A stretch of 64,000 nucleotides of DNA from Flavobacteriales bacterium (GTDB lineage Bacteria > Bacteroidota > Bacteroidia > Flavobacteriales > Schleiferiaceae): the NCBI GenBank assembly GCA_012269745.1, contig JAAXJR010000032.1:1-64000 (forward strand). The letters run 5' to 3'. Of this stretch, positions 1,673-50,077 are shown piece by piece; position 1 is the stretch's first letter; the number at the start of each line of letters is the position of its first letter. The translations under genes and the position numbers were made by a program. The notes under the pieces are model-generated. The model saw only the letters and a list, made by a program, of their open reading frames with translations, was not told the origin of the DNA and did no database searches.

Positions 1673-3004
1673 ATGAAGGAGCCCATTAAAGGATTCTCAA
1701 AACTCAGCAAGGCTGCGAAACTGGAATGGTTGACGCAGAACAACTTCGACAATCCCGAAGAAACTCTAGATTTATTCCAAGGTTACTGGCACAATGATGA
1801 GAATGTTCAGCGCAAGCACGACGACTTCATCGAGAACACCATGACCAACTACTACATGCCATTTGGGGTAGCGCCAAACTTCCAAATTAATGGCAAGCTT
1901 TACACCTTGCCTATGGCCATCGAGGAGAGTTCTGTCGTAGCAGCGGCTGCAAAAAGCGCGAGCTATTGGATGGCTCGTGGCGGATTCAAAACCGAAGTAG
2001 TAAGCACTGAAAAGATTGGTCACGTTCATTTCATGTACGAGGGAGATGCAAATGCACTTTTCAGAGATTTCGAATCTCTAGAGATTGAATTGCGTGAAGC
2101 TACCAAAGAGCTTACAGCGAATATGGAGGCTAGAGGTGGCGGTATAACGTCCATTGAATTGGTTGACAAAACTGCCGATCTAGATCATTATTACCAGTTG
2201 GAAGTATGTTTTGAAACCTGTGATTCCATGGGGGCCAATTTCATCAACTCCAACCTCGAAGAAATGGCCAAGCGCCTTGAAAGCTTTGCTGCTTCGCACG
2301 ACGAGCTAGAGGAAAGCAAACTAGAGGTAGTGATGCGCATCTTAAGCAACTACACCCCTAAATGTATCGTTCGTGCTTCTGTAAGCTGCCCAGTTTCAGA
2401 CCTCGCAAGCGAAGGAACTTCAGGAGAAGATTTCGCACGTAAATTCAAACGTGCCATTGATATTGCAAATGCGGAACCGTATCGCGCCACCACACATAAT
2501 AAAGGCATTATGAACGGTATAGATGCCCTTATCATTGCTACCGGAAATGACTTCCGTGCGGTGGAAGCGGCGTGTCATACCTATGCCTCTAAATCTGGTC
2601 AGTACCGCAGCCTGACGCATTGTAAAGTGGAGGACGGCATTTTTACGTACTGGATCGAAATCCCATTGGCATTAGGTGTTGTTGGAGGATTAACGAAGCT
2701 TCACCCGCTTGTTGTAAAGGCGTTGGAAATGTTAGGTAAACCAAATGCAGAAGAGCTCATGGGCATAGTAGCCGTCAGTGGTTTAGCTCAGAATTTTGCA
2801 GCATTGCGCGCTTTGGTAACCACAGGAATTCAGAAAGGACACATGAAAATGCACTTGATGAACATCTTGAATCAATTGGAAGCCACAGCAGAAGAAAAAG
2901 TACATATTGCAGAATACTTTAAAGATAAGGTACCGCACCACAGAGAAGTTGTGAATTACTTCTGTAATTTGCGCGGAGTGCCTGTCCCTAAGGTAGGCAG
3001 CTAG
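1673..3004 (+). CDS. mvaA: Hydroxymethylglutaryl-CoA reductase, class II
   Basis: A 443-residue cytosolic enzyme of the class II family (usual length about 430), interconverting HMG-CoA and mevalonate; in Bacteroidota it feeds isoprenoid synthesis. Visible catalytic elements are the IENT motif with Glu54, Lys277 in NKGIMNGIDA, Asp293 in GNDFRA, and His390 in the QKGH motif. The EESSVVAAA stretch near residue 84 matches the substrate-binding region. There are no N-terminal membrane segments, unlike class I enzymes. A GHMP kinase starts 6 bp downstream, which supports a mevalonate-pathway operon. A TAACTTTG box lies 21 nt upstream. Confidence 0.93.
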   Translation: MKEPIKGFSKLSKAAKLEWLTQNNFDNPEETLDLFQGYWHNDENVQRKHDDFIENTMTNYYMPFGVAPNFQINGKLYTLPMAIEESSVVAAAAKSASYWMARGGFKTEVVSTEKIGHVHFMYEGDANALFRDFESLEIELREATKELTANMEARGGGITSIELVDKTADLDHYYQLEVCFETCDSMGANFINSNLEEMAKRLESFAASHDELEESKLEVVMRILSNYTPKCIVRASVSCPVSDLASEGTSGEDFARKFKRAIDIANAEPYRATTHNKGIMNGIDALIIATGNDFRAVEAACHTYASKSGQYRSLTHCKVEDGIFTYWIEIPLALGVVGGLTKLHPLVVKALEMLGKPNAEELMGIVAVSGLAQNFAALRALVTTGIQKGHMKMHLMNILNQLEATAEEKVHIAEYFKDKVPHHREVVNYFCNLRGVPVPKVGS

Positions 3005-3010
3005 AAAACC

Positions 3011-3913
3011 ATGCTGAATTACCGCGCCAACGGAAAACTATTATTGACCTCGGAATACGCCATTACTCAAGGCGCAAAAGGTCTTGCTATACCTACCCGT
3101 TACGGCCAAAAGCTCAACTATACACCGAATCCGGAGGGCTCTTGCATCAAGTGGTCCTCGTTACGACATGACGGTCAAGAGTGGTTTTGGGCAGATTTTA
3201 GTCAAACGCTAGAGATTTTAGGTACTTCAAACGAAATCATCGCCCGACGACTGATTAAAAATCTTGAGGTTGTAAAAGCAAACACCGCCCTACTAGATCG
3301 CCCAGGCAACTTTGTTACGGATCTTGAATTCCCTGCAGAATGGGGGCTAGGATCTTCTAGTACCCTCGCAAGTTTGCTTGCTCAATGTGCGGGAACCAAC
3401 CCTTTGGCCACTTTCCGAGAAGTACACGGCGGCAGTGGTTACGACCTGGCATGTGCAACGGCAAACGGACCTATTATATATCAACTCCAAGACGACCAAC
3501 CTGCTTGCAGCGAAGTCGATATTCCTTTTGAATTCAAACACGATATTGGATTCGTGTATCGGGGGAATAAACAACTCACTTCCGAGAGCCTTAATCTCAT
3601 TCAAAAGAAACCGTTTTCTGATACGCAGATAGACCAGTTTAATGAGCTTACGGATGCCTTCTTGGAGTGTAAAACCATTTTAGAACTGGAAGAGGTAATC
3701 ATTAAGCACGAAAGCCTTCTGTCCGAACATTTAGGTCTACCAAAGGTTAAAGACGAACTATTCTCCGAATTCCCAGGTCAAGTCAAAAGCCTTGGTGGCT
3801 GGGGCGGAGATTTTGTCATGGTTACACGTCTAGCAGCATCTAAAAAATGGCTCAGGAACAACGGTTACAAAGTCATCTTCCCGTTCAAAAGTTTGGGGCT
3901 CTTCCGCCCTTAG
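3011..3913 (+). CDS. GHMP kinase family protein (GYDIA type), probably mevalonate pathway
   Basis: A 300-residue small-molecule kinase. The glycine/serine-rich ATP loop of GHMP kinases is WGLGSSS (residues 111-117), and a GSGYDLA motif (141-147) matches the GYDIA subgroup I know from Flavobacteriia. A conserved GGWGGDF stretch near residue 260 corresponds to the third GHMP motif. It starts 6 bp after HMG-CoA reductase, so the two are very likely one transcript. This suggests phosphorylation of mevalonate or phosphomevalonate, but the exact substrate cannot be read from sequence. The 300-residue length is normal for the subgroup. Confidence 0.85.
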   Translation: MLNYRANGKLLLTSEYAITQGAKGLAIPTRYGQKLNYTPNPEGSCIKWSSLRHDGQEWFWADFSQTLEILGTSNEIIARRLIKNLEVVKANTALLDRPGNFVTDLEFPAEWGLGSSSTLASLLAQCAGTNPLATFREVHGGSGYDLACATANGPIIYQLQDDQPACSEVDIPFEFKHDIGFVYRGNKQLTSESLNLIQKKPFSDTQIDQFNELTDAFLECKTILELEEVIIKHESLLSEHLGLPKVKDELFSEFPGQVKSLGGWGGDFVMVTRLAASKKWLRNNGYKVIFPFKSLGLFRP

Positions 3914-47094: not shown

Positions 47095-47214
47095 ATGAAG
47101 AGAATTGCCACTATTTCTATCGTATTACTAGCACTTGCACTAAGCAGCTGTGGAACCGCTAAAGATTGCGATTGCCCATCATTCTCCGCAGTTGAAACTA
47201 CACAGGTAGGCTAA
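47095..47214 (+). CDS. Tiny lipoprotein, 39 aa
   Basis: A 39-residue protein: signal MKRIATISIVLLALALSSC with lipobox LSSC (Cys19), then a 20-residue tail with a CDC pair (KDCDCPSF). The reading frame ends TAATG, so its stop overlaps the SprT-like gene start by one base, suggesting translational coupling. Below usual length cut-offs but convincing because of the lipobox. Function unknown; small CxC lipoproteins of this type occur in other Bacteroidota as far as I recall. Confidence 0.75.
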   Translation: MKRIATISIVLLALALSSCGTAKDCDCPSFSAVETTQVG

Positions 47215-47816
47215 TGAATCTGGAGCCACTTTTGCCTTATTTGCCAACGGCAGAAGTGCTGCCCCTCTTGGACAAATGGCTCAAGGACGAGGCTTTTGAT
47301 TTAGCCGTACACCGGCCAAGAGCAACCAAGTTAGGAGATTTCCGTCCCCCAAGAAAGGGAGCTCGCGCCAAGATTACGCTTAACAGCAACTTAGGTAAGT
47401 ACCAATTCTTAACGACACTGGTCCACGAAATCGCACATCTCAAGGTGTGGAATGCCTACGGACGTAAAGCGGCACCGCACGGCATCGAATGGAAGAACAT
47501 GTTTGGGAAGATGCTTGTGGAGATGGTAGAACAATGTGATTTTCCCAGGGAGTACCGTTCTGCAATCTTAATTCATGCCGCAAGACCTAAGAGTGCTGTA
47601 GGAGGCGATCCACAATTGCAAAAAGTCGTGCTTCAATTAGATAGCGGCGAAAATATTTTACTACTGGGAGACCTAAAACCAGGTGCTCTATTCAGCTTCA
47701 AAGGACGCCAGTTTAAGAAGCTTGAAAAGCGAAGAACTCGAGCCCTGGTAGAAGAAGTAGGGTCAAAGAAACAATACACCATTCCTTTGGTCGCTCAAAT
47801 AGAACTTAGTCAATAA
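47214..47816 (+). CDS. SprT-like metalloprotease-domain protein
   Basis: A 200-residue protein. The zinc site HEIAH (VHEIAHLKVWNAYG) near residue 68 with a third His near residue 86 (PHGIEW) matches the SprT/SPRTN zincin fold. The C-terminal half is beta-rich and basic (RQFKKLEKRRTRA). SPRTN degrades DNA-protein crosslinks, but for the bacterial form activity is unproven. It is coupled to the tiny lipoprotein gene before it and overlaps the convergent gene after it by 11 bp. Confidence 0.85.
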   Translation: MNLEPLLPYLPTAEVLPLLDKWLKDEAFDLAVHRPRATKLGDFRPPRKGARAKITLNSNLGKYQFLTTLVHEIAHLKVWNAYGRKAAPHGIEWKNMFGKMLVEMVEQCDFPREYRSAILIHAARPKSAVGGDPQLQKVVLQLDSGENILLLGDLKPGALFSFKGRQFKKLEKRRTRALVEEVGSKKQYTIPLVAQIELSQ

Positions 47817-48447
47817 ACCAGCGGTACCTCAGTCCTATGCTACTCAAATGACGAGAGTCTGTTTCTGGAGCATTCAAATCAATCAACACATAATTTGACT
47901 CAAAGCGCCAATGTTTGGTAATGTTTACGCCGCCCATAATTCCAAAGTTCAATTTAGTAGTAACTGTACTGTGCCCTTGGTTCATTAAGGTTTGTAGTTT
48001 ATCAAAATCACTCAGGCGAACCAAGGGAGCATTGGGATCTCTCCATATACCCTGATTTCTAGACCATATGTTCCATTGATAATCCCAGGCATCATTACAC
48101 GTTTTTGTCACCTCTGAACACACTGCCCTATCTCGATTAAAAGAGAAGCCAGCGTAAAACCTTCTAGAAGGGTTGTACTGCACTAATCCCAGTTGATGCC
48201 CCAAAGTAAATTGCGTAGATACTTTGGTCCCAGCATCACCGAGACACACCAACTTTTGACCAAAAGACCCTTTATAGGTGTAAATGAGTTCTAGATTGTC
48301 GAATACATCTATTCCTAACCGAAGATAGGCTCCTTGGTTAGAACAATTAGTTTGAAAAGAACCAAAGCCTGCACTGACTGCTTTTTGAGCGAAACCCGCA
48401 ATTGGCATTTGAATAATAAAAAACAATAGAAGTAGTCGTTTACGCAT
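47806..48447 (-). CDS. Putative outer-membrane beta-barrel protein
   Basis: A 213-residue secreted protein with signal peptide (RLLLLFFIIQMPIAGFAQ). The mature part shows alternating polar and aromatic residues, and ends in a transmembrane-strand-like HLSSIGLRYRWF motif, as in 8-stranded outer-membrane barrels. Four to six Cys are unusual for such a barrel. Its 5' side is the GTCTC/GAGAC dyad region. Function unknown. Confidence 0.7.
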   Translation of the reverse strand: MRKRLLLLFFIIQMPIAGFAQKAVSAGFGSFQTNCSNQGAYLRLGIDVFDNLELIYTYKGSFGQKLVCLGDAGTKVSTQFTLGHQLGLVQYNPSRRFYAGFSFNRDRAVCSEVTKTCNDAWDYQWNIWSRNQGIWRDPNAPLVRLSDFDKLQTLMNQGHSTVTTKLNFGIMGGVNITKHWRFESNYVLIDLNAPETDSRHLSSIGLRYRWFID

Positions 48448-48596
48448 AGTTGTGAATTTGTGTTAGTGTAATTTCTACACTTACATCACAAACCACAAAC
48501 CTTAAAACATTCAATTTTAAATAGTTACATATCCTGAGCACAAAAAACTAGTGTTATTTCAGTCTTAAGCGATCGATTTTCTCACTTCTAGAAATA

Positions 48597-48610
48597 GTCT
48601 CAAACGAGAC
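48597..48610. promoter_or_regulatory. GTCTC/GAGAC dyad 1
   Basis: GTCTC-AAAC-GAGAC, perfect arms. Shares the 12-mer TCAAACGAGACA with dyad 2, offset by exactly 18 bp. Confidence 0.55.
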
Positions 48611-48614
48611 ATTG

Positions 48615-48628
48615 GTATCAAACGAGAC
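48615..48628. promoter_or_regulatory. GTCTC/GAGAC dyad 2
   Basis: GTATC-AAAC-GAGAC, one arm mismatch, 18 bp from dyad 1. Its right arm extends to GAGACACTTG, the complement of the left part of dyad 3. Confidence 0.5.
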
Positions 48629-48681
48629 ACTTGAAGCATACTTATAACTATCCCTTACCTATAAAAGCACTCTAAACAAGT

Positions 48682-48695
48682 GTCTCAATTGAGAC
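48682..48695. promoter_or_regulatory. GTCTC/GAGAC dyad 3
   Basis: GTCTC-AATT-GAGAC is a perfect 14-bp palindrome; its left side extends to CAAGTGTCTC. Confidence 0.55.
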
Positions 48696-48827
48696 TGTTA
48701 AGTGTTAACACTACACTAAGTGACTCATTAGATCTATTAATGGATATTGAGCGAATTATACCCCCTACATTAATTCTCGATTTAAGAATAGCGCACTTGA
48801 GCTTTACTGGACTGAGTCTTTTGCGCA

Positions 48828-48843
48828 GTCTCATATACGAGAC
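48828..48843. promoter_or_regulatory. GTCTC/GAGAC dyad 4 (6-nt spacer)
   Basis: GTCTC-ATATAC-GAGAC has perfect arms but a spacer two bases longer. It lies 50 bp before the purK -7 box. Confidence 0.4.
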
Positions 48844-48893
48844 CACCTCACTTTCAAGAAAAAAATGAAACTTTTTAGGCCATTAGTATTGTG

Positions 48894-48901
48894 TACCTTT
48901 G
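48894..48901 (+). promoter_or_regulatory. -7 box (TACCTTTG) for purK
   Basis: Exact TAnnTTTG ending 21 nt before the purK ATG. Confidence 0.55.
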
Positions 48902-48922
48902 GACCCTTAAACAAGGGCATTG

Positions 48923-50077
48923 ATGGCAAAGAATATTTTCTCTACGGATTACAAACTGGGAATATTAGGCGGTGGCCAATTGGGCAAAATGATGCTTTAC
49001 ACCACTCGCAAGTTTGACATTCGCACGAAAGTCCTAGACCCTTCGCCAGAGGCACCAGGGCAATATGGTGCAAATGAATTTCAGGTTGGATCTCTCCAAG
49101 ATTACGACACCGTCATGGCATTTGCTGCCGATTGTGATACCGTGTGTATTGAAATTGAATCCGTCAACGTACAAGCGTTGAGAGACCTACGCGCCCAGGG
49201 CAAGAAAGTACATCCGAACCCAGATAGCCTCGAGCTCATCCAGGACAAGACCAAGCAAAAACAATTCTACGCCGACCACAACATCCCTACCTCACGTTTT
49301 GAGATGGTCTCAGGCAAGGCTGAATTTGAAGCTGCTCGCGATCGTTGGCCCATCCCATTCGTATGGAAGGCTGCTACCGGTGGCTATGACGGTTTTGGCG
49401 TGGTGGTTTGCCGCAGCGAAGATGATATACAACATATCCCAGATGCCCCAGGCATGCTCGAAGCATTTGTGGACTTTGAACTAGAAGTAAGTGTGATTGT
49501 CGCCCGCAACGAAAGTGGCGAGGTGAAGACCTTCCCTGTAGCAGATCAAGAATTCCACCCTACGGCGAACCAAGTAGAATATGTGCTCTGCCCTTCTGTG
49601 CTCTCCCAAGAGATGCAGCACAAAGCAGAAGAGATTGCCATGCGTACTGCGGAAGCCTACGATATCTGCGGACTACTCGCAGTTGAGTTGTTCGTCACTG
49701 CCGACGGAGAGATCTTAGTCAACGAAGTAGCCCCACGTCCTCACAACAGTGGACACCAAACTATTGAAGCTTGTTACACGAGCCAATTCGAACAGCACGT
49801 TCGCGCCGTCCTCGACCTGCCCTTGGGCTCTACCGAACTCAAAGCAGCGGGCGTGATGGCGAACCTAGTAGGTGCAGAAGGGTATAGCGGGGATGTAGTG
49901 TATCAGGGGTACGACGAGTTGCTCGGGGAACCAGGGGTAAACATCCACATTTACGGCAAGGCGCAAACACGTCCATTCCGTAAAATGGGACACGTCACGG
50001 TAGTGGCAAAAGATAGAGATGAAGCCCGCAAGCGCGCCGAGTGGGCAAAGAATAGTATATTGGTCAAAAGCAAATAG
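48923..50077 (+). CDS. purK: N5-carboxyaminoimidazole ribonucleotide synthase PurK
   Basis: A 384-residue ATP-grasp enzyme of purine synthesis, making N5-CAIR from AIR, ATP and bicarbonate. The dinucleotide-like start LGILGGGQLGKM, the ATP-grasp loop VWKAATGGYDGFG near residue 148, and the ELFVTADGEILVNEVAPRPHNSGH catalytic region near residue 260 are present. The start is ATG 48923; a TTG in frame lies one codon before. purE follows after 2 bp, its product being the next enzyme. Confidence 0.95.
   Translation: MAKNIFSTDYKLGILGGGQLGKMMLYTTRKFDIRTKVLDPSPEAPGQYGANEFQVGSLQDYDTVMAFAADCDTVCIEIESVNVQALRDLRAQGKKVHPNPDSLELIQDKTKQKQFYADHNIPTSRFEMVSGKAEFEAARDRWPIPFVWKAATGGYDGFGVVVCRSEDDIQHIPDAPGMLEAFVDFELEVSVIVARNESGEVKTFPVADQEFHPTANQVEYVLCPSVLSQEMQHKAEEIAMRTAEAYDICGLLAVELFVTADGEILVNEVAPRPHNSGHQTIEACYTSQFEQHVRAVLDLPLGSTELKAAGVMANLVGAEGYSGDVVYQGYDELLGEPGVNIHIYGKAQTRPFRKMGHVTVVAKDRDEARKRAEWAKNSILVKSK

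Follow-up and report, generated by a model that had tools for sequence, protein, structure and literature searches.

Organization of the Locus

The window, namely, the whole 64-kb stretch of DNA analyzed here, contains an SprT-like gene (47214-47816, plus strand; assigned by Pfam SprT-like and by synteny) and, on the other side of an insertion, the purK gene (48923-50077, plus strand; Pfam PurK ATP-grasp and PurK_C), which has orthologues in the genus. A species-specific inserted segment (47817-48893), approximately 1.05 kb, separates the SprT-like gene from the purK promoter and accommodates an orphan gene and the dyad region. This segment was found in the source species only and was absent from relatives with flanks up to 88% identical, in which the purK promoter follows the SprT-like gene after a few dozen bases (approximately 23 bp from the SprT stop codon to the purK -7 element in species G007). 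Alignment of the dyad region with relatives gave no match beyond the purK start, by which the insertion was recognized. The purK -7 element, TACCTTTG (48894-48901, plus strand), was aligned with those of the relatives and has been kept from the ancestral promoter. The inserted segment is AT-richer than its surroundings. An imperfect 16-nt direct repeat (81%) flanks it (47784-47799 and 48896-48911); its left copy belongs to the ancestral coding region of the SprT-like gene, and the repeat may be either a coincidence or a trace of the insertion.

The orphan gene (47806-48447, minus strand), which is the presumed target of the operator cluster considered below, encodes a protein of 213 aa with an N-terminal signal-peptide-like stretch. 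A homologue of this protein was found in none of the 24 other genomes of the genus, in no other of the 396 genomes of the order and nowhere in the wider genome contig collection; the protein had no Pfam match, and its structure model was uninformative (pLDDT 32). By sequence reading, a weak -7-like element of this gene, TAAAATTG, was located at 48512-48519 on the minus strand.

All dyad sequences quoted in the initial annotation were confirmed in place. They form a cluster of 247 bp (48597-48843), in which three dyads have exact arms and one has a mismatch. Palindrome 1, GTCTCAAACGAGAC (48597-48610), is an exact match to the strict consensus GTCTC-RWWY-GAGAC and belongs to the type that is in excess genome-wide. 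Palindrome 2, GTATCAAACGAGAC (48615-48628), starts 18 bp after palindrome 1 and has a single arm mismatch, GTATC, the same arm being present at the small RNA locus sRNA-A (see below) of species G006. Palindrome 3, GTCTCAATTGAGAC (48682-48695), is a perfect 14-bp palindrome identical to the sRNA-A site of species G018 and G022. The remaining dyad, GTCTCATATACGAGAC (48828-48843), has a 6-base spacer and is a doubtful member. Two extended half-sites, GAGACACTTG (48624-48633, plus strand) and CAAGTGTCTC (48677-48686, plus strand), face each other, the former showing the flank preference GAGAC-W-N-T-T. When the gene-free stretches between ORFs of at least 100 aa were measured, the dyads were found to lie in the largest internal gap (48448-48919, 472 bp), which is exceeded only by the one at the window edge. 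A hidden ORF in the dyad region (48680-48868, 62 aa) had no Pfam match, and the Rfam search of this region likewise gave no match.

Distribution of the Palindrome in the Genome and in the Genus

The pattern GTCTC-N(2-8)-GAGAC occurred three times in the window against 0.34 expected, and none of 100 shuffles reached three. In whole-genome pattern searches (2.27 Mb, 87 contigs) with the reversed motif as the control, GTCTC-N4-GAGAC was found 10 times versus once for the control, that is, well above the chance frequency that would have spoken against a functional motif. The other spacings from 2 to 8, when pooled, gave 5 occurrences versus 5, so that the dyad with the 6-base spacer at 48828 is left without support as a member; of the four dyads originally grouped together, the N4 dyads are retained. 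According to stem statistics based on 460 kb of the genome, GTCTC was the most over-represented GC-rich 5-bp stem at N4 (6 versus 0.08 expected), and no such stem was found there at N3 or N5. Over-representation with a fixed spacer, as is characteristic of an operator, was thus observed for N4 only.

The consensus for the genus was 14 bp in length, GTCTC-RWWY-GAGAC, with the spacer R-W-W-Y. The strict motif GTCTCRWWYGAGAC was found 31 times versus once for the control in 25 genomes of the genus and 4 times versus 3 in the 63 genomes that represented the remaining genera of the family; comparison of the genomes shows that the palindrome is restricted to one genus of Schleiferiaceae, where it is conserved as an island. 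The flank GAGAC-W-N-T-T was the preferred one in the 31 distinct strict sites, and ACTTTT follows the palindrome at sRNA-A in several species. Since this flank is shared by the sites, the complementarity of GAGACACTTG and CAAGTGTCTC, reported initially as a long-range feature, needs no RNA pairing; the complementarity is present and is what arises when half-sites lengthened by the flank GAGAC-A-C-T-T face each other.

As for the question whether such sites always stand beside one gene, they were found at several loci; a small set of targets is nevertheless marked, of which purK is no conserved part. The locus itself is not conserved in close relatives, being a species-specific insertion, whereas the motif is conserved at other loci of the genus. 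Because the segment is present in one species only, local conservation cannot explain the dyads.

In 18 of 22 species, a palindrome also directly follows the stop codon of a gene for a glycosyltransferase (e.g., G000:C42:128088; L087, L137), at the junction with a SUI1-like gene, where the gene ends are convergent and no obvious promoter is seen. In four species (L023, L069, L084, L082), a palindrome lies 138-139 bp upstream of the ATG of a gene for a large secreted protein, which is TonB-receptor-like by eye.

Two Putative Sibling Small RNAs

An unannotated RNA of approximately 65 nt, sRNA-A, is located between uvrA and a SpoU-type methyltransferase gene (G000:C42:126770-126840; L137, about 1421-1490), while its sibling, sRNA-B (G000:C65:32392-32411; L197), has the same core and a different terminator. 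The sRNA-A gene is composed of a -7 element TAnnTTTG, a 5' mini-hairpin, an invariant single-stranded core of 20 nt, GCTTAGGTTTATTGGTTTGG, and a strong terminator; the -7 elements of both sRNAs have the form TAnnTTTG/A, and the sRNA starts were deduced from conserved edges. The RNA alignment mixing A and B types revealed no structure, and in the A-only alignment used instead, five compensatory pairs were found in the terminator. With up to three mismatches allowed, the core was detected in 24 of the 25 genus genomes, usually in two or more places; exact copies were present in other Schleiferiaceae, including Phaeocystidibacter luteus, and none was found in viral contigs. Neither sRNA matched an Rfam family, and in a library of 5.4 million papers no match was found for Schleiferiaceae in combination with small RNA. 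A conserved promoter of their own, a single-stranded core and a Rho-independent terminator with covariation, as expected of trans-acting sRNAs, were all found; sRNA-A and sRNA-B are accordingly described here as putative trans-acting sRNAs which, as far as the searches show, had not been described previously. In several species (e.g., G001, G004, G006, G013, G016 and G020), sRNA-B was observed approximately 6-7 kb from the HTH/atpG region considered in the next section.

Sixteen species have the palindrome, with no more than one mismatch, centered at -110 to -115 relative to the sRNA-A start, and a 17th species has the site with two mismatches. This position, approximately 114 bp upstream, is kept while the distance to the uvrA stop codon varies between species, so that an island conserved at a fixed distance from a promoter, another characteristic of operators, was found at sRNA-A in the 16 species. 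In the alignment of 17 species, the palindrome was the best-conserved 14-mer upstream of sRNA-A (0.92 versus a mean of 0.57). A second site is present at -38 to -40 of sRNA-A in seven species. For sRNA-B, 9 of 14 loci, that of the source genome among them, have a half-degenerate site with an intact right arm GAGAC about 77 bp upstream (-76 to -79).

A Small HTH Gene Downstream of atpG

Downstream of atpG lies a gene encoding an HTH protein of 58 aa (Pfam HTH_17, E = 4e-7), which is followed by a kinase gene. In ten species, a palindrome with at most one mismatch is located 81-90 bp upstream of the ATG of this gene; comparison between species thus places the palindrome at set distances upstream of the two putative sibling sRNAs as well as upstream of the HTH gene. 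The predicted fold of the protein is a winged HTH (wHTH), and its best PDB matches were BldC chains (TM 0.66-0.77 by target length), with weak Foldseek E-values of 0.09 and above. The family trait of BldC, a short free-standing MerR-like wHTH with no dimerization or effector domain, was found in the 58-aa protein; since the candidate element is an inverted repeat and BldC reads direct repeats, the protein is named BldC-like and is not filed as a BldC member.

Close orthologues of the HTH protein are confined to the genus, as is the motif. In species G003 and G011, no HTH gene stands between atpG and the kinase gene, which has itself been retained, and no palindromes were found at the places examined; at these places, G012 also had no palindrome. 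In G004, the HTH gene and its palindrome have both decayed, and the site after the glycosyltransferase gene is still present. G010 and G020 keep the HTH gene and have no recognizable sites, whereas G018 and G022 have sites and no HTH gene was found in them; atpG was likewise not found in these two, and their assemblies may be incomplete. The co-occurrence of the HTH gene and the palindrome (Fisher p = 0.08, or 0.02 with G012 counted) is only suggestive, and the losses may represent a single event on the tree.

Predicted Pairing of the sRNA Core and Putative Sponge RNAs

In 14 of 18 species, the predicted pairing between the sRNA core and the HTH mRNA leader was better than that of dinucleotide shuffles (at most 13 of 200 as good), with -21.7 kcal/mol in G021 and -20.3 kcal/mol in G001 (0 of 200 shuffles in each). 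Pairing of the core with the palindrome-bearing secreted-protein gene of G017 reached -31.5 kcal/mol (0 of 200 shuffles). A gene whose product starts with MLSQKEVERL has a leader complementary to the core just before the ATG in two species (L315, G009:C13; L317, G024:C145) and is probably a conserved sRNA target, as judged by this complementarity.

Short terminator-ended transcripts with at least two stretches complementary to the core, designated putative sponges, were found in the source genome (C69), G017 and G024. In the loci concerned (L198:1-160, minus strand; L073/L322, about 3000-3160, minus strand; L309, G024:C32), two or three such stretches are followed by a terminator, and palindrome-like sites lie upstream. 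In the source genome, a cluster of three palindrome-like sites is common to the C69 sponge and to an adhesin-like gene that diverges from it; hence, the cluster in the window is not the only one in this genome.

Relation of the Sites to the Genes of the Window

The center of palindrome 2 lies 109.5 bp upstream of the end of TAAAATTG, the counterpart at sRNA-A being 110; given three sites and several allowed distances, this match is not significant, and neither the orphan promoter nor the purK promoter has a convincing distance to a site. No conserved site-promoter relation was found for the window's own genes, the segment being present in one species only, which limits the claim on the target gene of the window and not that on the motif. 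The mRNA leaders of the orphan gene and of purK were not convincing sRNA targets. In the dyad region, the sRNA core was absent at up to three mismatches, and so were sRNA-complementary seeds of at least 10 nt; a loose same-sense resemblance of the orphan leader to the core (TTAAGGTTTGTGGTTT) was not counted. As purK retains the ancestral promoter and is not accompanied by a site in relatives, it was treated as a neighbor, and it is probably a mere neighbor of the operator cluster.

Evaluation of Alternative Explanations

The main rival to the small HTH protein is a different dimeric regulator acting at the same operators, for example a Crp/Fnr-like protein or the response regulator belonging to the kinase whose gene follows the HTH gene, with the HTH gene as a mere target; this is considered unlikely, although it is the alternative that deserves most attention. 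Sites of Crp/Fnr-like proteins have the same 5-4-5 geometry as the palindrome, the HTH gene carries its upstream site as a plain target would, and G010 and G020 have the gene and no sites. It should also be noted that the 58-aa wHTH has no evident dimerization domain and that BldC reads direct repeats (PMC5859096). However, HTH orthologues and the motif end at the same genus limit, and in G003 and G011 the kinase gene is kept while the palindromes and the HTH gene are gone.

The dyads could instead act as short RNA hairpins, namely, as bidirectional terminators or as a leader switch in which a 10-bp GAGACACTTG/CAAGTGTCTC stem alternates with local hairpins. Convergent gene ends are indeed where several of the conserved sites lie, and a terminator-like character was assigned to two dyads. 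Compared with shuffles, folding of the region was somewhat better for the minus strand (z = -2.8) and no better for the plus strand (z = -1.7). A strong stem followed by a U tract, as in an intrinsic terminator, was not found: the stem is weak (-5 kcal/mol), with no consistent U tract and mostly with none. Moreover, the loop is strictly of four bases, the arms conserve sequence and not just pairing, conserved variants break the pairing (GGCTC...GAGAC, GTTGC...GAGAC), and separate strong terminators are present at atpG and at the sRNAs. The hairpin explanation is thus quite improbable, and its terminator or attenuator form was rejected in view of the hairpin strength and the mismatch variants. 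It is also improbable that the cluster merely came along with the inserted element, as repeats used in recombination or located at the termini of a small mobile cassette, and has no local regulatory role; the species specificity and AT-richness of the segment would fit such an origin, but the dyads lie away from the segment ends, no transposase or recombinase is encoded, and in many species the same palindrome precedes RNAs and genes that are conserved in the chromosome. That short palindromes clustered by chance, to which the chance-level frequency of the N6 member would correspond, is hardly conceivable and was rejected in view of the shuffles, the genome-wide excess, the excess of the strict motif in the genus and the conserved positions. 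A partition or replication site, the other function proposed initially, was rejected as well: no par or rep genes, such as parAB, were recognized beside those sites that were examined, and it is with promoters and gene ends that the sites are associated.

Proposed Model

Thus, the palindromes are likely to be operators at which a dimeric regulator acts. This regulator is probably the small HTH protein, and the cluster in the window would control the orphan gene. The initial proposal of a binding site for a dimeric regulator is upheld by the strict 5-4-5 palindrome, its over-representation, its conservation as an island and its fixed distance from the predicted sRNA promoters. The inferred steps are given in order of falling strength, from the operator through the identity of the HTH protein and the sRNA circuit to the control of the orphan gene. 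The motif, with the consensus GTCTC-RWWY-GAGAC flanked by A/T and then TT, would be bound by one dimeric (or symmetrically bound) transcription factor and would act on the sRNA and HTH promoters. The regulator may be the BldC-like HTH protein encoded after atpG, which would then regulate its own gene; the prospects of this small protein being the regulator at the palindromes are put at slightly less than even. The sRNAs would pair with the leader of the regulator mRNA, and the sponges of some species would pair with the sRNAs, forming a feedback circuit. The inserted 1.05-kb segment may have brought or acquired the three-operator cluster, by which the regulator would control the orphan gene; the operators at 48597, 48615 and 48682 would serve this gene, which came with the segment, and their spacing of 18 and 67 bp would allow cooperative binding. 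A more complete scheme is advanced tentatively: a BldC-type wHTH would read a strict 14-bp palindrome within a closed circuit, activating two sRNAs that silence its own mRNA, while sponges under the same palindrome titrate the sRNAs; loss of the regulator would lead to loss of the operators, and an inserted cluster could recruit new genes such as the orphan.

Very little is known about regulation in the Schleiferiaceae, a marine and mostly uncultured family. The present findings offer a defined putative operator of 14 bp, a candidate regulator small enough to be synthesized, two putative sRNAs absent from Rfam and a set of predicted targets, which makes the circuit testable in vitro without culturing. 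Such a system would also make it possible to examine if inverted repeats are recognized by single-domain proteins of the BldC-like type, and a BldC-like protein acting on an inverted repeat, if confirmed, would be a new variant.

Comparison with Known Systems

BldC of Streptomyces gave its name to the BldC family, of which it is the founding member and which consists of free-standing wHTH proteins resembling MerR; BldC is a monomer in solution and binds AT-rich direct repeats head-to-tail (PMC5859096). The 58-aa protein resembles BldC, which gave the best PDB matches to its predicted fold, in being a very small single-domain wHTH, the sequence identity being about 20-24%; unlike the direct repeats of BldC, the conserved element that is its predicted target is a strict inverted repeat.

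Taken singly, operators, sibling sRNAs and sponges belong to known kinds, sibling sRNAs being known in Bacteroides (PMC11697453). The paralogous sRNAs FopS and GibS of Bacteroides thetaiotaomicron (PMC11697453, PMC7366714) are, like those described here, multicopy sRNAs of Bacteroidota with a common single-stranded core that pairs near start codons (predicted in the present case), whereas sRNA-A and sRNA-B differ from them in sequence and in length (about 65 nt). The known targets of FopS are SusC-type transporters, while the best-supported predicted target here is the mRNA of the candidate regulator itself. In other phyla, sibling sRNAs under one regulator are represented by Qrr of Vibrio, the Cia-dependent sRNAs of Streptococcus and OmrA/B (PMC11697453). 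As in those systems, several near-identical sRNAs here would depend on one, in this case putative, transcription factor. The regulator class and the operator of Qrr, the Cia-dependent sRNAs and OmrA/B are unrelated to those considered here, and, in contrast to these systems, the regulator gene and the sponge transcripts appear to carry the operator too. As far as the searches show, the operator, the putative sRNAs and the suggested circuit are new.
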